A stretch of DNA of 64,000 nt from Henckelia pumila (taxonomy: Eukaryota > Streptophyta > Magnoliopsida > Lamiales > Gesneriaceae), in the NCBI RefSeq assembly GCF_033568475.1, contig NC_133123.1:153651753-153715752 (forward strand), read 5' to 3'. Under the pieces are notes generated by a model, which was not told the origin of the DNA, searched no databases, and was given only the letters and a program-made list of their open reading frames with translations. The translations under genes and the position numbers were made by a program. Below, in pieces: positions 51,304 through 63,890 of this stretch. Each line of letters opens with the position of its first letter. The first letter of the stretch is position 1.

Positions 51304-52297
51304 TGTAAGGCCCAGAAATATTAAAGTATTAATTATGGAATTTGAAAATTAAATTCCATATTTTGGGTAAACATGGATTTAAGAATCTATGGAAATTATA
51401 TATGTACTTTCCGAGCCGGAAATATTTAATTTGAGAATTTACGGATTTTGAGAATTAAATTCCGAGAATTCTTAAATTAAAAGAATAAATATTTGATTTG
51501 AATATTTATGGAATTTAAGATTTAATTCCAACTTTCGGAAATTAAAGAAGATGTATTTCGAAGATGTAATCCGATCAGAGACTGGTTTGTAAATATTGAA
51601 GTTTGAAGAACTAAAGTGCAGAAGGCCGGGATTATTTATTAATCCGAATTTATTTAATTTTAATCCGAGTATATTTAATTTGAGAATATTTAGAGTTTCG
51701 ATTCAAATTCTAATATTCTTAAATTATTTAGGATTGAAATTGAATTAAAAAGAAGGTCGAGGACTGAATTGCAATTTACGAAGTTTCAAGGACTAAATTG
51801 CAATTATACCTGAACATATCCATTCTAATATATTATTCAGAATTGGATACGTGCACTTTGCATATGAAATCAGATTTTTGAAGCTGAAAGTCGAGACCCT
51901 TTCTTTTCTTTTGGAAAGTTTGTTCTTCAAATCTTTATAACTTTTGCTCCGGTTATCCGATTTCGATTCCGTAAATTGTTCTGGAATCCTTGAAACGAGG
52001 GCTTAGATCTCGTGTAAGTTTTTTGATGTTTTTAATGGAATTCAAAATCAGTGTATGGCAGAAATCAGTACGTTTGCATATGATCATGTTCTTGAAGTGT
52101 TGTATCGTTTCTTTTCAAAAACTGAATCAACAAACGGCTATCGATTGTGTTCTTATGATTTCCAGCTTATGATTCGAATTATATACCTGCTGATATTTGA
52201 TATTATGATGAGAGGTTGCTGGTTTTAGAAGATATATGTCGATATGAGTTGAGAATTGATTTCGATGTTTTGTCGGTTACCGATTTTCAATCGCTAC

Positions 52298-54950
52298 TGA
52301 AACGACCCTAACTCTATAATAAATAAATATGCGGAAATTTTTTTTTTTTTTTTTTATACTTACTAAATAAAATATGTACATATATGCCCATACATATATG
52401 CACAGAATAAAAATATTTAAAATGAATAAACAATTAAATACTTAAATAAAAATGCATTCTTAAAAATATAATAAATATCTGAGTCAAACATTAATTAAAA
52501 ATATACTGCATAAGTAAATAAAAGTTTGCATGCACTGAAAATATTAAATAAATATTCTAGACCCTCAATCACTGAAAATAATAAAAATGTATCATGCTGA
52601 CAAAAACAATAACATGCATAGCGACTCAGAATATTTCACGGTCACGGGGCCACTGCATGCATGCTCATACGTCCTCGCCTCCGGTGGGTACAATGTCATC
52701 CTCAACGTACTCACCTGCACCATACCAGTGTAGTGAGCCTAGAGGCCCAACATACTAACATAACAAGGGTTTAAAATAATTTAAACCAATTTAATACTAA
52801 TACATACATATACATGAATGAGCATGCTTAAAAATTTACATAACATAACTTACTTAAATAAACATAATACATAACATAATACATAACCATATTGAGCAAT
52901 TTATTTTCTAACATAGCATGGTTGTATCCGTAGTGTAACCTTAAATCATACATTAAATACTGATCAGCGTGGAAACCTACGTACGTGGCCGGTGACGAAT
53001 CACCTCTTAAATTGGCAGTAAACTGCCCTTCAATCATATGGGGACGAATCCCCCTTAAATTGTCACACTACTTCAACTTCCAACATAAAATATTTTTTAT
53101 TGCTCAACTTAAACATTAAATCATGCATAAAATATTATTTCATGAATGCATGTACTTGAATAAAATGTGTGTCCATCATATATATTTAATTTAATTTCTT
53201 ATTAACATATAAATATTAAAATAACTCAAATGCATAAAAATAATTAAATATATAATCAGGACACATGCAAATTTTCTCATGGATGGTCCTGGACTGCTGG
53301 CCCTACACACAAGCCCATTAACTTAAATCTGGTCCATTAACATACTTAAACCCAATATCTTAAACTTTAAGCCCAAATAATTATTCTAAGCCCAATTAAA
53401 TTAATAAAGCCCATTAAAATACACTAAGCCCAATAACAACTTAAACTGGCCCAATGGGCCCAAAAACCCAAGGACTGGCCCATTAACTTTTATGGGCCCA
53501 AAATCCCATAAAATAAATGGACTAACTTAATTAAAAATTTTAAAAGTCCAAATAAAATTATTTGGGAGTCCAAATAATTTTATTTCAATTTATTTGACTC
53601 AAAAACACATAAATTTGTAAAATACTTTAAAAATAAAATACTCGAGCCCGGCCCACCAAACTCGGACCCGGACTCACTAACCCGACCCACTACCTAGCCG
53701 ACCCGACCCGGACCACTCAGACCCGACCCAGACCCCTAACCTAGCCCAACCCGATCCCCCCTCTCCCATTGCCTCTCGGCCGTGAGCAGCAGGCCCTCTT
53801 GGCCTGCTGCCGGCCGGCTCCGGCCGCCCCTGGCCGGAGCGCCACCGCCCGGACGTAGCCCACGTCCGGGCGGACCTAGCCTGACCAGGCCCCAGCCCCA
53901 TGCACGACCAAACCAAGTTCCCGAAGCCACCCCTTCCGAAACCCTAAACTGTGACCTCCTGGGGCCGATTTGATGTAGCTCGGTCATAGCTCCCTTTCCA
54001 GCCTGAACCGTCCGACTCCAACCGACCCTAAGGCTCCCTAGGACCCTCTTGACCGAACCCTCAGCCCTGAACCAGTCCATGACATCAAACAAAATCGTGA
54101 ACCATGGATATGCACGCAAACCACAAAACTTCAACCGATTTTTTCTGAAAAGTAATGAAAGAAATTCGATGTCTACACATTCCATATAATATACCACTGA
54201 TATCGTACGAAAAATGGGAAAGAAACATGCCTTTCACCGATTTATGGAGTTTAGAAGCGTGTACGACGGACTTCGGGACGACGGGACGACGACGGGGTGT
54301 CTTGGCTGCTTGGAACCTTCGAAAAAACTATGGAGTCACCTTGGCTTGAGGAAGAAGATGAAGATGAAGATGGAGAATGGGGGTGGTGTCGGCTGATGCT
54401 TGGGAAGGAGGAAGGGGTCGGCTAGTAGGTTTAGGTTTTAGTTTAATTAGGAAATAGGGTAATTAATTATATAATTAAGGATATAACATATATAAAATAT
54501 AACTTAATTAAAATTCTAAAAGAAACCTTTAAAATCTGAAACATAAAATAAAATCTCGAAATATAATTTTAGGGGAATTTTAAAAATAGTAAAAAGTCAA
54601 TATTTTGGCTAATTTTTGAATAAAAAGGACTCCTAAAATTATAAAATTAAATACTTAAAATTTTGAGATAATAAAACTCAAAATAATATTTTAAGGCTCT
54701 AATAAGGCTCATAAAATAATTTGGGTGGAAAGTTGTCATCTCGTTCGTCCACGGTCCCGTCCACGCGATCAAATAATAAAAATACTAAAAAATCATAAAA
54801 ATCACTAATTATGGGTTAAATGCTTAAAAATAAATTAAATCATGCATAAATAATTCACATAATTATTTAACCCATAAATCATAAATTTAAATAATTAAAT
54901 ATCCTAATTATGCAGGCGGATTTATGTAATTAAAAATACCGGGTGTTACA
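52298..54950 (-). repeat. Chromovirus 3' LTR (left on plus strand)
   Basis: 2,653 bp, TGAAACGACC to GGTGTTACA on plus. A homopolymer T run near 52,340 and a CCCGACC-rich, GC-rich stretch at 53,640-53,900 occur in both LTRs. Open frames inside it duplicate exactly in the partner LTR and look incidental. Confidence 0.95.
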
Positions 54951-54995
54951 ATTCTCCCCCCCTTAAATTGAATTTCGTCCTCGAAATTAAAGTAC

Positions 54996-57900
54996 TTACC
55001 CGAACAACTCCGGGTAGCGAGTCCTCATATCCTCCTCGGTCTCCCAAGTAGCTTCCTCCTCCGAGTGATTCAGCCACTGGACTCTGACCATCGGTATGAC
55101 CCGCGTCCTAAGCCTCCGCTCCTCTCTAGCCAAAATCCGCACGGGTCTCTCCTCGTAAACAAGATCTGGCGGCAACTGTAAGGGCTCAAAATCCAACACA
55201 TGCGACGGGTTGGAAACATATCTCCGAAGCATGGATACATGGAATACGTTGTGCACTGCCGCTAGCCCTGGAGGTAGAGCTAAACGATAGGCCAACGTGC
55301 CAACTCGCTCCAAGATCTCGAATGGCCCTATGTATCTCGGATTAAGCTTGCCTCTCCGCCCAAAACGCGCTACTCCCTTCATAGGTGACACCTTCAAGAA
55401 TACGTGATCGCCTACCGCGAACTCCAAATCGCGTCGTCTGGCATCCGCATAACTCTTCTGCCGACTCTGCGCAGTCCTCATCCTATCTCGAATCTGCGTC
55501 ACAATGTCAGCTGTCTGCTGCACAATCTCTGGACCCAACAAAATCCTCTCTCCAACCTCATCCCAATGCACCGGAGATCTGCATCTCCTCCCATAGAGCG
55601 CTGCATATGGAGCCATACCTATAGACGACTGAAAGCTGTTGTTATAGGTAAACTCCACTAATGGCAGTCTAGTCTCCCAAGATCCTCGAAAATCGATAAC
55701 ACAAGCTCTCAGAAGATCCTCGAGAACCTGGATCACTCTCTCGGACTGACCATCTGTCTGGGGATGAAAAGTTGTACTGAACAAAAGCCTAGTCCCCAAA
55801 GCTGTGTGCAGACTCTTCCAAAATGCTGATGTGAATCTCGGATCTCTGTCTGACACAATAGACACTGGTATGCCATGCAGTCTAACAATCTCTCTGATGT
55901 AAAGCTCTGCATACTGTGTCAAAGTATAAGTAGTCCTCACCGGCAAGAAATGAGCTGACTTGGTGAGTCTATCCACAATCACCCAAATCGCTGTACATCC
56001 TCTGGCACTCCTCGGTAAGCCAACTACAAAGTCCATCGTAATATTCTCCCATTTCCATTCCGGAATAGGGAGAGGTCTAAGAAGTCCTGCTGGACGCTGA
56101 TGCTCTGCTTTGACTTGCTGACAAGTCAAGCACTCTGACACCACTCTCCCGATGTCACTCTTCATACCGGGCCACCAATACAATAGCTGCAAGTCTTTGT
56201 ACATCTTCGTACTTCCGGGGTGAATGGAGTACGGAGATGCGTGAGCCTCTGTCAAAATCTCAGCTCGCAACTGATCGACGTTCGGTACCCACATCCTACC
56301 ACGGTACTGAACGATGCCATCCTCCACTGTATACAAGAGATTACCTCTAGCCTCATCTCTCTGTCTCCATCGCTGTAACTCCTCATCAGTGGACTGTCCC
56401 TCTCTAATCCGATCTCTCAAAACTGGCTGCACCGTCAACACTGACAAGCTCGGTGCATGGCCGCTCGGATAGCACTCCAAACCAAATCTCTGAATCTCGG
56501 TCTGTAGTGGTAACTGCACAGTCAAACATGATACCACAGACGACTTCCGACTCAAAGCATCTGCCACTACATTAGCTTTACCCGGATGGTAGCTAATGTC
56601 ACAATCATAGTCCTTCACCAACTCCAACCATCTGCGCTGTCTCATGTTCAACTCCTTCTGGGTGAAGAAGTACTTGAGGCTCTTGTGATCGGTGAAAATC
56701 TTGCACTTCTCGCCGTAAAGATAGTGCCTCCAGATTTTCAAAGCGAAGACCACTGCTGCCAACTCCAAGTCATGCGTCGGGTAGTTCTGCTCATGAATCT
56801 TCAACTGTCTCGACGCATACGCAATAACCTTACCACACTGCATAAGCACTGCGCCTAAACCAAGTTTAGACGCGTCGGTGTAAACCACTAACTCCTCATG
56901 TGGTACTGTCATCGCTAACACTGGTGCTGTAGTGAGTGCTTCCTTCAGCTGATCGAAGCTCCTCTGACAGTCTGAACTCCAGATAAACTTCGCATTCTTC
57001 TTGGTCAAGGAAGTCAAGGGTACTGCAATAGAGGAAAAACCCTTGATGAACTTCCTATAATACCCCGCCAAACCCAAGAAACTGCGAATCTCTGAAGCAT
57101 TCTTCGGAATACCCCAATTCTGCACTGCCTCCACCTTAGACTGATCGACTGCAACTCCATCTCTCGAAATAATGTGGCCAAGAAATGCCACCTGCTCAAG
57201 CCAAAACTCGCACTTGCTGAACTTGGCATACAACCGATGCTCCCTCAAAGTCTGCAATGCGGTCTGAAGGTGCTGTCTATGCTCCTCGATGCTCCTAGAA
57301 TAGATCAAAATATCATCAATAAAGACTATGATGAACTGATCCAGATATGGCTGAAAGACTCGGTTCATGAGATCCATGAAAACCGCTGGAGCATTGGTCA
57401 ACCCAAATGGCATCACCAAGAGCTCGTAATGCCCATATCGTGTCCGGAAAGCAGTCTTGGACACATCTGCATCCCTAACACGCAACTGATGGTAACCAGA
57501 TCGCAGATCGATCTTGGAGAACACTGAAGCTCCCTGCAACTGGTCAAACAAGTCCTCTATCCTCGGCAGCGGATACTTGTTCTTCACTGTGACTCTGTTA
57601 AGCTCTCGGTAATCGATGCACAGTCTCATACTGCCATCCTTCTTCTTCACAAACAACACCGGAGCTCCCCAAGGAGAAAAGCTAGGTCGAACAAAGCCTT
57701 TCTCTAACAACTCCTGAATCTGCTCCTTCAACTCTTTCATCTCGGTAGGAGCAAGCCTGTACGGTGCCTTAGAGATAGGCACGGTGTCTGGCACTAAGTC
57801 AATACTGAACTCCACCTCTCTTACTGGTGGAATTCCTGCCACATCCTCCGGAAAGACATCCGGAAAGTCACGAACCACCTCTAACTCTGATAATGATCTG

Positions 57901-58369
57901 CTAGATGGCTCTGAAGTCGTGACAATACTCGCTAGAAACCCCTGGCAACCCCGTCTCAACAACTTCCTCGCCTGAATATAGGATATCACCTGAGGAATAT
58001 CACTGCTCTGAGATGCATGAAAAGTGAACGGGTCGCCCCCTGTAGGTCTCACTGACACTGATCTCCGACGAAAATCAATCGAAGCTCCATTGACTGTCAA
58101 CCAGTCCATACCCAAAATAAGATCAAAACCACTCAAAGGCAAGACTACTACATCTGCTCGAATGGAGTGTCCCTGCAGCTCTAACTCCAGTCCTCGAATA
58201 ACCTTCGAGGTAGACATAATCTGCCCTGACGGCATAGTAACATCATACCCGCTGTCACTACTCTCAGGTGTGATGCCTACCCGCCTGATAAACTCCAGGG
58301 AGATAAACGAATGCGTAGCTCCTGAATCTAGCAACGCAAACGTGGAGTTGCCTCCAACTAGAATTCTCC
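54996..58369 (-). CDS. Chromovirus Pol: protease, RT, RNase H, integrase, chromodomain
   Basis: An unbroken frame of about 1,120 codons, probably the second exon of gag-pol. With the Leu codon at 58,332-58,334 (start of [12 protein letters not shown]) as residue 1: protease about 1-95; reverse transcriptase about 195-375 with [18 protein letters not shown] and catalytic FIDD (~338-342); RNase H about 475-600 with [14 protein letters not shown]; integrase about 640-900 with an HX-CX2C zinc region (CLTCQQ), [17 protein letters not shown] and [10 protein letters not shown]; and a C-terminal chromodomain about 1065-1110 with [16 protein letters not shown], which places it in the Tekay/Del lineage. 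It ends at 54,996-54,998. No initiator Met is needed if the upstream intron is spliced; a TAG at about 58,413 blocks the frame upstream. Confidence 0.95.
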
Positions 58370-58573
58370 CTGCACGCAGAAAATTCCCAACAGTTTCATA
58401 CCACTTCTAAATTTTCCCAAACGAGTCACTACAAGTTCTTAATTCTAATCACAAGTAAAACATGCTTCCTATTCTAACATGCAGTTAAATGACCCAAATA
58501 ACAAGAATTTCAAATTAAATACTAAATCTTTAACCAAAGGAGAATTTATTAAAATACTAGGGATAGGATGTAC
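58370..58573 (-). other. Putative 204-bp GT-AG intron between gag and protease
   Basis: The gag frame runs through SLITG and then meets a stop after three more codons, and the protease frame opens only after a gap. On the minus strand a GT at 58,573-58,572 and an AG at 58,371-58,370 bracket AT-rich, stop-filled sequence. Removing it joins the two frames in phase within a Gly codon, at the point where related elements have a continuous gag-pro. Donor and acceptor contexts are moderate. This is inference from sequence only. Confidence 0.65.
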
Positions 58574-59612
58574 CGGTGATCAAGGAGGTGTCTGGATCGA
58601 CCTCCTCAGCCTGCATCACGAACACCCTACCAGCGGTGTTCTTCTTCCTGGGGCAGTTAGCAATCTGATGCCCCGGCTCTCTGCAGTGGAAGCAAACTCC
58701 TGCTCCCAATAGGCAAGGTCCCGAATGCATCTTCTGGCACTTCGGGCAAGTGGGATGAGCTATGGCATTAGGGGCCCCGCCCCTCTGCTGCTGCTGCGGC
58801 CTCTGCTGCTGATTCGGGCCCTTAGCCGGCCCTGTATACTGCTTCTTCGCAGGAGGCTGCGAAGATGGTCGCTGATAACCTGTCTGTACAAACTGCCTCT
58901 TACTCTGTTGCTCTCTCTGGATCGCTCTCCGACCCTCCTCAGAACGCAAAGCCCTGCTGACTGCAGACTCATATGTAAAAACGTCTGCCATGCGCACGTC
59001 GTGCCTGATCTCAGCCTTCAGGCCCTCAACAAACTGACGCAGCTTCTCCTGCGGACTATCGGCAATCATGGGCACAAAACGACAGCCCCTCTCAAACTGG
59101 CTTATGTACTCCACCACAGATCTGTCCCCCTGACGGAGACTCATGAACTCCCGGATCATGCGACTGCGCACATCCTCAGTGAAATATTTGGCGTAGAAGA
59201 TACGCCTAAACTCAGCCCATGTCAGAGTAGGTAGATGGACTCCTCGTACTGCACCCTCCCACCATGAGGCTGCATCGCCTCGCATCATGTATGTAGCACA
59301 GCTCACCCTGTCGGCGTCTGTGATCCCCATATAGTCAAAGATGGACTCAAGTGAGCGAATCCATCCCTCAGCCACCAACGGATCGGTGGTCCCCAAGAAC
59401 TCCTTAGGCCCCTTCTTCTGGAACCTCTCGGCGACGTCCTCCTCGTGGGACAGTCTGGGACGGGCTGCCTGCTGCTCCAGCAAGGCAGTAATACCCGCCA
59501 TCATCGTGGCACTGGCCTGCTCCAGTGCTGTCATGGGGTGCTGCTGAGGTGGCGGTGGAGGTGGAGGTGGATGTGGAGGTCTCCCACGTCGATTCACCTG
59601 TCTGGGAGGCAT
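58557..59612 (-). CDS. Chromovirus Gag
   Basis: About 351 residues from the ATG at 59,610-59,612 (MPPRQVNRRG); an alternative ATG lies five codons upstream at 59,627. A proline and glutamine run near the start is followed by the retrotransposon gag domain (GDAASWWEGAV, TWAEFRRIFYAKYF, EYISQFERGCRFVPM) and a CX2CX4HX4C zinc knuckle (CFHCREPGHQIANC). If the transcript is unspliced, translation stops at 58,557-58,559 and gives Gag alone. If spliced, it continues into Pol. The frame is intact. Confidence 0.93.
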   Translation of the reverse strand: MPPRQVNRRGRPPHPPPPPPPPQQHPMTALEQASATMMAGITALLEQQAARPRLSHEEDVAERFQKKGPKEFLGTTDPLVAEGWIRSLESIFDYMGITDADRVSCATYMMRGDAASWWEGAVRGVHLPTLTWAEFRRIFYAKYFTEDVRSRMIREFMSLRQGDRSVVEYISQFERGCRFVPMIADSPQEKLRQFVEGLKAEIRHDVRMADVFTYESAVSRALRSEEGRRAIQREQQSKRQFVQTGYQRPSSQPPAKKQYTGPAKGPNQQQRPQQQQRGGAPNAIAHPTCPKCQKMHSGPCLLGAGVCFHCREPGHQIANCPRKKNTAGRVFVMQAEEVDPDTSLITGTSYP

Positions 59613-59783
59613 TCTGCACCACCACATATTTATTTACGTAAATCGCCATGATAACTAAGTGTTTTAAAATTAATGCTAACTTAAATTCTAGAAATTAAAT
59701 CATGCTATAAACATTTAAAACTTACAGACCGGTAGCGTGGATTTCTGAGCTCGCATAGCAGTGAGGACCCCTCCGAGGACCGT

Positions 59784-59795
59784 GCTCTGATACCA
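59784..59795 (-). other. Chromovirus primer-binding site (initiator tRNA-Met)
   Basis: TGGTATCAGAGC on the minus strand, 2 bp inside the 5' LTR end at 59,798. Confidence 0.92.
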
Positions 59796-59797
59796 AC

Positions 59798-62456
59798 TGA
59801 AACGACCCTAACTCTATAATAAATAAATATGCGGAAATTTTTTTTTTTTTTTTTTTTATACTTACTAAATAAAATATGTACATATATGCCCATACATATA
59901 TGCACAGAATAAAAATATTTAAAATGAATAAACAATTAAATACTTAAATAAAAATGCATTCTTAAAAATATAATAAATATCTGAGTCAAACATTAATTAA
60001 AAATATACTGCATAAGTAAATAAAAGTTTGCATGCACTGAAAATATTAAATAAATATTCTAGACCCTCAATCACTGAAAATAATAAAAATGTATCATGCT
60101 GACAAAAACAATAACATGCATAGCGACTCAGAATATTTCACGGTCACGGGGCCACTGCATGCATGCTCATACGTCCTCGCCTCCGGTGGGTACAATGTCA
60201 TCCTCAACGTACTCACCTGCACCATACCAGTGTAGTGAGCCTAGAGGCCCAACATACTAACATAACAAGGGTTTAAAATAATTTAAACCAATTTAATACT
60301 AATACATACATATACATGAATGAGCATGCTTAAAAATTTACATAACATAACTTACTTAAATAAACATAATACATAACATAATACATAACCATATTGAGCA
60401 ATTTATTTTCTAACATAGCATGGTTGTATCCGTAGTGTAACCTTAAATCATACATTAAATACTGATCAGCGTGGAAACCTACGTACGTGGCCGGTGACGA
60501 ATCACCTCTTAAATTGGCAGTAAACTGCCCTTCAATCATATGGGGACGAATCCCCCTTAAATTGTCACACTACTTCAACTTCCAACATAAAATATTTTTT
60601 ATTGCTCAACTTAAACATTAAATCATGCATAAAATATTATTTCATGAATGCATGTACTTGAATAAAATGTGTGTCCATCATATATATTTAATTTAATTTC
60701 TTATTAACATATAAATATTAAAATAACTCAAATGCATAAAAATAATTAAATATATAATCAGGACACATGCAAATTTTCTCATGGATGGTCCTGGACTGCT
60801 GGCCCTACACACAAGCCCATTAACTTAAATCTGGTCCATTAACATACTTAAGCCCAATATCTTAAACTTTAAGCCCAAATAATTATTCTAAGCCCAATTA
60901 AATTAATAAAGCCCATTAAAATACACTAAGCCCAATAACAACTTAAACTGGCCCAATGGGCCCAAAAACCCAAGGACTGGCCCATTAACTTTTATGGGCC
61001 CAAAATCCCATAAAATAAATGGACTAACTTAATTAAAAATTTTAAAAGTCCAAATAAAATTATTTGGGAGTCCAAATAATTTTATTTCAATTTATTTGAC
61101 TCAAAAACACATAAATTTGTAAAATACTTTAAAAATAAAATACTCGAGCCCGGACCACCAAACTCGGACCCGGACTCACTAACCCGACCCACTACCTAGC
61201 CGACCCAACCCGGACCACTCAGACCCGACCCAGACCCCTAACCTAGCCCAACCCGATCCCCCCTCTCCCATTGCCTCTCGGCCGTGAGCAGCAGGCCCTC
61301 TTGGCCTGCTGCCGGCCGGCTCCGGCCGCCCCTGGCCGGAGCGCCGCCGCCCGGACGTAGCCCACGTCCGGGCGGACCTAGCCTGACCAGGCCCCAGCCC
61401 CATGCACGACCAAACCAAGTTCCCGAAGCCACCCCTTCCGAAACCCTAAACTGTGACCTCCTGGGGCCGATTTGATGTAGCTCGGTCATAGCTCCCTTTC
61501 CAGCCTGAACCGTCCGACTCCAACCGACCCTAAGGCTCCCTAGGACCCTCTTGACCGAACCCTCAGCCCTGAACCAGTCCATGACATCAAACAAAATCGT
61601 GAACCATGGATATGCACGCAAACCACAAAACTTCAACCGATTTTTTCTGAAAAGTAATGAAAGAAATTCGATGTCTACACATTCCATATAATATACCACT
61701 GATATCGTACGAAAAATGGGAAAGAAACATGCCTTTCACCGATTTATGGAGTTTAGAAGCGTGTACGACGGACTTCGGGACGACGGGACGACGACGGGGT
61801 GTCTTGGCTGCTTGGAACCTTCGAAAAAACTATGGAGTCACCTTGGCTTGAGGAAGAAGATGAAGATGAAGATGGAGAATGGGGGTGGTGTCGGCTGATG
61901 CTTGGGAAGGAGGAAGGGGTCGGCTAGTAGGTTTAGGTTTTAGTTTAATTAGGAAATAGGGTAATTAATTATATAATTAAGGATATAACATATATATAAA
62001 ATATAACTTAATTAAAATTCTAAAAGAAACCTTTAAAATCTGAAACATAAAATAAAATCTCGAAATATAATTTTAGGGGAATTTTAAAAATAGTAAAAAG
62101 TCAATATTTTGGCTAATTTTTGAATAAAAAGGACTCCTAAAATTATATAAAATTAAATACTTAAAATTTTGAGATAATAAAACTCAAAATAATATTTTAA
62201 GGCTCTAATAAGGCTCATAAAATAATTTGGGTGGAAAGTTGTCATCTCGTTCGTCCACGGTCCCGTCCACGCGATCAAATAATAAAAATACTAAAAAATC
62301 ATAAAAATCACTAATTATGGGTTAAATGCTTAAAAATAAATTAAATCATGCATAAATAATTCACATAATTATTTAACCCATAAATCATAAATTTAAATAA
62401 TTAAATATCCTAATTATGCAGGCGGATTTATGTAATTAAAAATACCGGGTGTTACA
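59798..62456 (-). repeat. Chromovirus 5' LTR (right on plus strand)
   Basis: 2,659 bp; differs from the partner by about four substitutions and length changes in a T run and two TA-rich sites. Confidence 0.95.
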
Positions 62457-63890
62457 GCTACGCCGTCGGCTTAATTGTTGAAATCGTTTTGATAGCCTAT
62501 GATTGAGCTGAGGATCTTGTGATTTTATAATGATGCTTCTTGATCATAATCGTTATATTTCAGATTTGTTTCAAGCACGATCAGCTCACGAAGTCCGACT
62601 TGGCACCGAAGACGTTTGATTGAAGGTTTGAAGTCGTTTGATCGTTTGAATTGTCTTGCTTTTGAGCTGAATTTGATATCTATTTCTTGATGGAGTTGAA
62701 TAGAGATTGAATAGAGTTTGATATGAATATTTGATATTGTATTTCAGCATTGAAGCATTCAGAATCGAGAAGAAAAAGGTATAAAATGATATCCGTCGAA
62801 GAGGACTTTTGATACTCGAGATTGATGATCTCGAGTTACCTCGAAGCAAATCACATACTATTTGATTGTTATTCTTGATTTAGAATTGTTGTGTCGATCC
62901 ATCACAGGTAGTGGATCTTTATTGCTTACGATATGATATGAGATATGAATTGATTCGATGCCAAGGTCGTTTACGAACCTTATTTCCGAGTCGTTTGCAA
63001 ACTCGTTAGATGTATATCCATGTCAAGATCATTTATGAATCTTGATGGACAAGAAGTGTTAAGAATCAATTCTTTAGATATATGCGCGCTAGATTGATTT
63101 AAGTCTTGAGTCTTGAGAAGTTTCGATTTGATTTGATATTGTTCTAACTGATTTTATATATATCGTTTATACTGGGAATTTATTCTCACCGGAGTTATCC
63201 GGCTGTTTTTGTTTTGTATGTGTGCATGACAACAGAGCGGGCCGGAGCTGATCATCGATGTTATTGACAGCTGGGAGAGAGTCTAGAACGTGAGGACTCG
63301 GGTTGTTGCTGAACTTAGAACTTTTAAAAAAAACATCAAAATTTCTAGAACTATGTTAGTTTGTAGTTCATGTTGGAAACTCGGGAGAGTTATGTTGTTT
63401 ATTGTTTTGTTAACGACTTGTTTGATGTAATAAATATTTGTGTAGATGCTTGAGAGTTTGTTGATGTCTAAATGCATGTTTTGGAATTGATATATCATGT
63501 ATTGGATCATGTTTTTATGATTTAGAATGAAAGGAATCGGGTTTGACAGCAAAATGTTATCTGCTGGTTTTGCTGGAAAACATGCCCGCTCGATCGGGTG
63601 ATTATCACCGATCGAGCGCGGCCTTATTATTTTCAAAACAGAGGATCTGATTTTTGGCTCGCTCGATCGGAAGATTATTACCAATCGAGCGCAGCCCTGA
63701 AGTTTTGGAACCCGAGAGTAGGGCAAACTTGTTCGCTCGATCGGGTGAAATCACCCGATCGAGCGAGGTGACGTTTATCTTTAAAATTTTTTTTTTTTAC
63801 TTTGATCTTGGTTTATTTATTTGATGCTTAATGAATGTTAATTGTTCATTGATTGCCCTAGAATGAGATTAGCAACCCGAGGTCCCCACA

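Follow-up and report, generated by a model that had tools for sequence, protein, structure and literature searches.

A candidate spliceosomal intron between gag and protease in a high-copy plant chromovirus, and intronless copies that point to integration of spliced RNA

The question raised by a 64,000-nt stretch of the Henckelia pumila genome (NC_133123.1, 153,651,753–153,715,752; termed the window, with all positions below being those of the window) is how a long terminal repeat (LTR) retrotransposon on its minus strand obtains its enzymes, when a stop-containing segment lies between its gag gene and its protease. A first-pass annotation had proposed that this segment, 204 bp long, AT-rich and with GT and AG borders, is an intron; the coordinates it gave proved exact. 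The answer that we favour, and consider very probable, is that the element represents a high-copy plant chromovirus family with a spliceosomal gag–protease intron of about 200 bp, the degree of splicing of which would set the Gag:Pol ratio.

In the window copy the segment occupies positions 58,370–58,573 on the minus strand, its 5′ end being a donor GT at 58,573 and its 3′ end, TGCGTGCAG, an acceptor AG ending at 58,370. The donor interrupts a glycine codon and the phase is 1 at both borders. The gag gene extends as far as the donor (58,574–59,612, minus strand) from a probable start at the M of MPPRQ, the start codon being a prediction; the Gag frame is open over 59,633–58,557 (minus strand) and closes at a TAG at 58,557–58,559 (minus strand; intron offset 14), after a tail reading T-S-Y-P. 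Downstream of the acceptor, pol (54,996–58,369, minus strand) encodes protease, reverse transcriptase (RT), RNase H, an integrase zinc domain and a chromodomain. The Pol frame is open from 58,406 to 54,996 (minus strand), protease through chromodomain, with the start of protease, R-I-L-V-G-G...D-S-G-A, directly 3′ of the AG. The segment itself is 69% A+T and has 3, 8 and 6 stops in its three frames. As judged from these frames, unspliced RNA, probably the usual genome, would give only Gag with a short intron-coded tail, and spliced RNA would give a Gag-Pol fusion.

The arrangement is shared across the family. Intron-bearing copies (n=60) were fetched from the 885-Mb assembly of the host, comprising the 30 most similar to the window copy and 30 that are consecutive along contig C1 (L051–L080). 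The GT and AG borders are intact in all 60 (30/30 in each set). Counts based on 56 copies omit four that have no exact first anchor word (L007, L015, L021 and L024). In the 56, mean G+C is 0.31 in the segment vs 0.57 in 200 nt of gag and 0.50 in 200 nt of pol. The comparison of family members which the first-pass annotation had called for, with respect to the borders and the AT-rich insert, came out in its favour. An in-frame Gag stop, TAG or TAA, is present at intron offset 14 in 55/56 copies. A private insertion in, or decay of, the window copy was also considered and was rejected, with GT/AG in 60/60 copies and 412 intron-bearing places in the genome.

The length of the segment appears to be free of the reading frame. 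It ranges from 201 to 213, with 22, 21 and 13 copies in the three registers modulo 3 (n=56; a one-base deletion in exon 2 of L017 makes its intron count one base short, and its AG is present). Indels were counted in 54 copies, with L052, L054 and terminal gaps excluded and the intron stretch including its 27 exon bases. Distinct indels divisible by three number 4/19 in the intron stretch, 10/13 in 402 nt of gag, where each of the remaining three occurs in a single copy, and 0/2 in 402 nt of pol, both likewise single-copy; when L052, L054 and terminal gaps are included on the pol side, 7/10 indels are non-multiples of three. On this evidence the segment bears the marks expected of a spliceosomal intron, i.e. 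GT...AG borders, A+T-richness and a length independent of frame.

These observations bear on two ways in which Pol might be made without splicing. One is passage of ribosomes across the segment, by stop-codon read-through or frameshifting, to give a joined Gag-Pol. The window copy taken by itself could be read in this manner, since its segment is 204 nt long and gag and pol by chance share a frame; the first-pass annotation had likewise allowed that sister elements might read through in frame, which would make the segment a simple insertion or mutation. The copies are not of this kind. All 56 have stops in all three frames of the segment and their lengths fall into the three registers given above, whereas gag and pol are each without a stop over 150 nt in 52/56. 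With the flanks mostly held in register and the segment free of it, neither read-through nor frameshifting could work across the whole family, and we regard this explanation as extremely improbable. The other is independent translation of Pol by internal initiation or re-initiation, for which it may be said that gag and pol are two separate open frames. A separate Pol start is, however, unlikely, because the first in-frame pol ATG lies downstream of the protease D-S/T-G motif in 56/56 copies; an in-frame ATG at the intron end is present in 2/56 copies and absent from 54/56. We give this alternative, too, very little chance.

If spliced RNA is occasionally reverse transcribed, the genome should contain copies lacking exactly this segment. 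The host genome was searched with anchors consisting of one word from each flank, with an open gap between them and nothing joined. A gap of 0–30 was found at 21 places, and in all of them it is 27 bases, i.e. the precise loss of GT...AG; no other length occurs. The control gap of 31–61 occurs at no place in the genome, and the intron-bearing distance, 215–245, at 412 places. The intronless share of anchored places is thus 21/433 (4.8%). Sequences were fetched for 20 of the 21 intronless copies, the 21st, on contig C129, being outside the trees discussed below. In 18 of the 20, all natural DNA, the Gag frame is stop-free through the 27-base gap and 150 nt on each side; with the Gag stop at offset 14 in 55/56 intron-bearing copies, the frames are thus those predicted by the first-pass annotation, in which unspliced RNA would yield Gag and spliced RNA Gag-Pol.

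Where tested, the intronless copies carry marks of the element's own replication. An exact primer-binding site, TGGTATCAGAGC, is present at 16/20 intronless loci. Outer LTR ends were tested in four of the 21 copies, and the 5′ LTR start and 3′ LTR end were found in all four. Their 5-bp duplications are all different (GCACC, GAAGC, CTTTT and AATAT), and over the last 286–295 columns the identity between 5′ and 3′ LTR is 99.3, 99.0, 99.65 and 100%, the copy at 99.0% having no mismatch and one gap. By these marks, the four appear to be young, separate insertions that the element itself reverse transcribed and integrated. The identification of the segment as an intron is supported, strongly but indirectly, by the 21 places lacking exactly GT...AG, together with the separate LTR insertions in the four copies tested. 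On the most plausible interpretation, splicing at the 58,573/58,370 borders has repeatedly yielded RNA that was then reverse transcribed and integrated. The intronless copies L034 and L035 (G000:C2:5256767 and 5271108) are nearly identical, share an orientation and are separated by 14 kb; they may reflect local duplication.

Alternatively, splicing may play no part: the intronless copies would represent an older or a sister lineage, and the segment would have been inserted later. On the gag side, 14/20 intronless loci are 82.8–87.0% identical to the window copy (L032 and L041 over part only), which is in keeping with this, and a first small tree, with 26 window-like intron-bearing and 20 intronless copies, could suggest a basal intronless group. 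When 30 further intron-bearing copies were added, however, most intronless copies came to lie alone among intron-bearing relatives in both the gag-side and the pol-side tree; six intronless loci share 94–97% identity on the gag side and 98–99% on the pol side with the window copy; and the stretch lost is invariably exactly GT to AG. An older intronless lineage is in our view very unlikely.

How often the intron has been lost was addressed with separate gag-side and pol-side trees of 56 intron-bearing and 20 intronless copies. On the gag side 17 changes of state are needed, of which well-supported branches force at least 13, compared with a mean of 18.0 when labels were shuffled (166/500 shuffles were as low). 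The pol tree has 15 changes, at least six of them forced, with a shuffled mean of 17.9, though its bootstrap had not settled. The evidence of the two trees is that the intronless state has arisen more than once. Since template switching is possible, the number of splicing events is given as a range and not as a count. Two of the intronless copies, L039 and L048, may derive from a single loss.

If loss of the intron were irreversible and free of cost, intronless clades should accumulate. Clades were counted after removal of L032 and L041 from the gag tree (long branches, partial gag match) and of L052 and L054 from the pol tree (long branch), and were compared with 1000 runs in which the intronless tips, held at the observed number, were placed at random. 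On the gag tree the 18 intronless tips form 16 clades, compared with a random mean of 5.6, and 16 was reached in 1/1000 runs; without L001–L030 there are 14 clades vs 5.5 at random (2/1000). Sampling in this test is uneven, in that it takes in 20/21 intronless places and 56 of at least 412 intron-bearing places. With moderate confidence, the sequences suggest that intronless copies leave few descendants and that selection maintains the intron. It may be that the poor spread of intronless copies is caused by their making only the fusion, and no free Gag. As for the copies removed, the partial matches and long branches of L032 and L041 on the gag side point to chimaeras, nested insertions or truncations, as does the long branch and/or partial family match of L052 and L054 on the pol side.

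Taken together, the proposed mechanism is as follows. Host splicing would remove the intron from part of the transcripts, which the intronless copies allow to be proposed with high confidence, and the extent of splicing would in turn fix the ratio of Gag to Pol. Spliced RNA would occasionally be packaged, reverse transcribed and integrated, as the same copies suggest. The intron may then be retained since intronless copies, limited to the fusion, have few descendants, a weaker step than the others. A fuller form of this proposal is a self-maintained switch, in which splicing is the sole route to the enzymes, spliced RNA slips into replication often enough to have made about 5% of anchored copies intronless, these copies are near dead ends because they make only the fusion, and the intron is repeatedly lost, yet persists; we see the chances of this fuller form as evenly balanced.

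The intron may alternatively be genuine yet a neutral passenger, spliced at some rate but with no regulatory role, and kept in most copies because packaged RNA is mostly unspliced. Its retention at 412/433 anchored places would be expected on this account as well, the ratio and regulation of Gag and Pol are predictions, and the pol tree is weak evidence for intronless copies being dead ends. On the other hand, intron-bearing copies reach the Pol frame by splicing only, so that splicing is needed for the enzymes; the in-frame Gag stop is retained in 55/56 copies; and intronless copies are nearly always at tips of the gag tree. A passive role seems unlikely.

Several observations weigh against the regulated-intron interpretation, or against parts of it. 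The intronless label is mildly clustered on the pol tree (22/500 shuffles as low), where the tip-ward pattern is also weak, with 20 tips in 17 clades vs 12.2 at random (33/1000) and, without L001–L030, 14 clades vs 9.2 (89/1000). Template switching between co-packaged RNAs could explain part of the spread and scatter of the intronless state. The donor is altered, as read by eye, in at least two anchored places (C1:84045099 and C2:11031133), and L063 is the one copy in 56 without a Gag stop at offset 14. The anchor search covered only gaps of 0–30, 31–61 and 215–245. The evidence base as a whole is DNA sequence, from one genome and one family.

The element that hosts the segment has two LTRs, ending TG...CA, on the minus strand, and is flanked by a target-site duplication, GCTAC, at 52,293–52,297 and 62,457–62,461. 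The 5′ LTR (TGTAACA...TTTCA) spans 59,798–62,456 (minus strand, 2659 bp) and the 3′ LTR 52,298–54,950 (minus strand, 2653 bp); the two are 99.62% identical over 2661 aligned columns, with 4 mismatches and 3 gap openings. The primer-binding site TGGTATCAGAGC, which we take to be a match to initiator tRNA-Met, lies 3′ of the 5′ LTR (59,784–59,795, minus strand), and a purine tract, GGGGGAGAAT, lies upstream of the 3′ LTR (54,951–54,960, minus strand). Pfam matches in Gag are to Retrotrans_gag and Ty3_capsid, with a CCHC knuckle slightly under the cut-off; those in Pol are, in order, to RVP_2, RVT_1, RNase H and the integrase zinc domain, with SH3_Tf2-1 also matched, and the integrase core is absent from the Pol matches at E 0.001. 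The chromodomain match (Chromo, PF00385; Pol residues 1090–1134/1136; E 5.8e-5) is weak, at 23.4 bits vs a curated cut-off of 25.1, but well placed. With a protease–RT–RNase H–integrase order and a chromodomain at the C terminus of integrase, the element is, as judged from its domains, a chromovirus of the Ty3/gypsy superfamily.

Other features in and beside the element may be recorded. The hexanucleotide GAGGTG is repeated 5.8 times in the 5′ end of gag (59,546–59,580), the coding strand of which gives a proline run in the N terminus of Gag. Each LTR has a stop-free frame of 165 amino acids (53,736–54,233 and 61,238–61,735, minus strand), that in the 5′ LTR sitting in a very G+C-rich stretch (0.745 at 61,200–61,399). 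Adjoining the element, but outside it, are three 47-bp units with a spacing of 73–74 bp (63,575–63,768), units 2 and 3 being 72% and 77% like unit 1, with an inverted core, GCTCGATCGG / CCGATCGAGC. An Rfam scan of 52,000–63,000 gave zero matches.

The closest published systems are compared here on the basis of excerpts of the papers cited, unless otherwise stated. A chromovirus intron of this type goes unmentioned in the excerpts of PMC2832683, PMC2533021, PMC6523491 and PMC6696364, and the words intron and splic are absent from PMC3059260. Among the matches listed in open-licence PMC, mostly judged by title and abstract, there was no report of a chromovirus gag–protease intron; its novelty is unproven. 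A scan of IMG/VR with an 87-aa piece of protease gave 23 stretches that fit the pattern, with no relative confirmed. As to classification, one Tekay family, with LTRs of 2.1 kb and tRNA-Met priming (PMC2533021), agrees with the 2.65-kb LTRs and tRNA-Met-like site seen here, making Tekay a candidate label. In sunflower, spliced isoforms have been reported in two copia elements, in an expressed set without a Tekay element (PMC7730604).

Most plant LTR groups have one open reading frame (ORF) and some have two (Neumann 2019, PMC6317226). Ogre elements, of the Tat lineage of Ty3/gypsy, have two ORFs of one polyprotein, with an intron of mean 274 bp (PMC6317226, citing Neumann 2003 and Steinbauerova 2008), the removal of which from some of the transcripts allows the complete polyprotein to be made (PMC6317226); PMC2533021 also describes an Ogre family whose intron lies in pol. 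The likeness is that a short intron divides two ORFs in a comparable switch, with splicing in the present case deduced from DNA. By contrast, the Ogre intron lies between protease and RT, whereas here it is one domain earlier, between Gag and protease, and in a chromodomain element. The intron would thus work as an Ogre-like switch, but it is not an Ogre intron. Bianca elements also have two ORFs, separated by a mean of 172 bp, a stretch of comparable size, but are Ty1/copia, and the excerpts of PMC6317226 do not state that they are spliced.

The intronless copies themselves constitute a natural experiment, in which the frequency of packaging and integration of spliced RNA is recorded; sequence alone can then be used to ask whether loss of the switch halts the spread of an element. 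Control of Gag and Pol by splicing has been reported for few plant LTR elements, and this family would add to them a chromovirus whose intron has a new position, between gag and protease.

CRR belongs to the CRM-type chromoviruses. Plant LTR elements are generally intronless, with exceptions including Ogre and EVADE (2025 review, PMC12786077), and those that splice are given in PMC3735527 as Bagy2, Ogre, CRR and BARE1. EVADE (Ty1/copia), CRR and Bagy2 env likewise have spliced transcripts (PMC12786077, PMC3735527), but differ in having other introns and products, i.e. a subgenomic RNA, removal of rt, and env. For Diaspora it was suggested that an env-less element could arise in one step if an improperly spliced RNA were packaged (PMC1142308). 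In BARE1 (Ty1/copia), a facultative, U-rich intron of 104 nt near the end of Gag sets Gag versus Pol, but with the opposite logic to that proposed here, the spliced BARE1 RNA encoding Gag only (PMC3735527). Amplification of DNA copies of the spliced BARE RNA from barley DNA was unsuccessful, and the BARE authors reasoned that a retrotransposon has to keep its spliced RNA out of packaging, reverse transcription and integration (PMC3735527). The chromovirus family described here appears to have integrated its spliced RNA repeatedly, and has survived.
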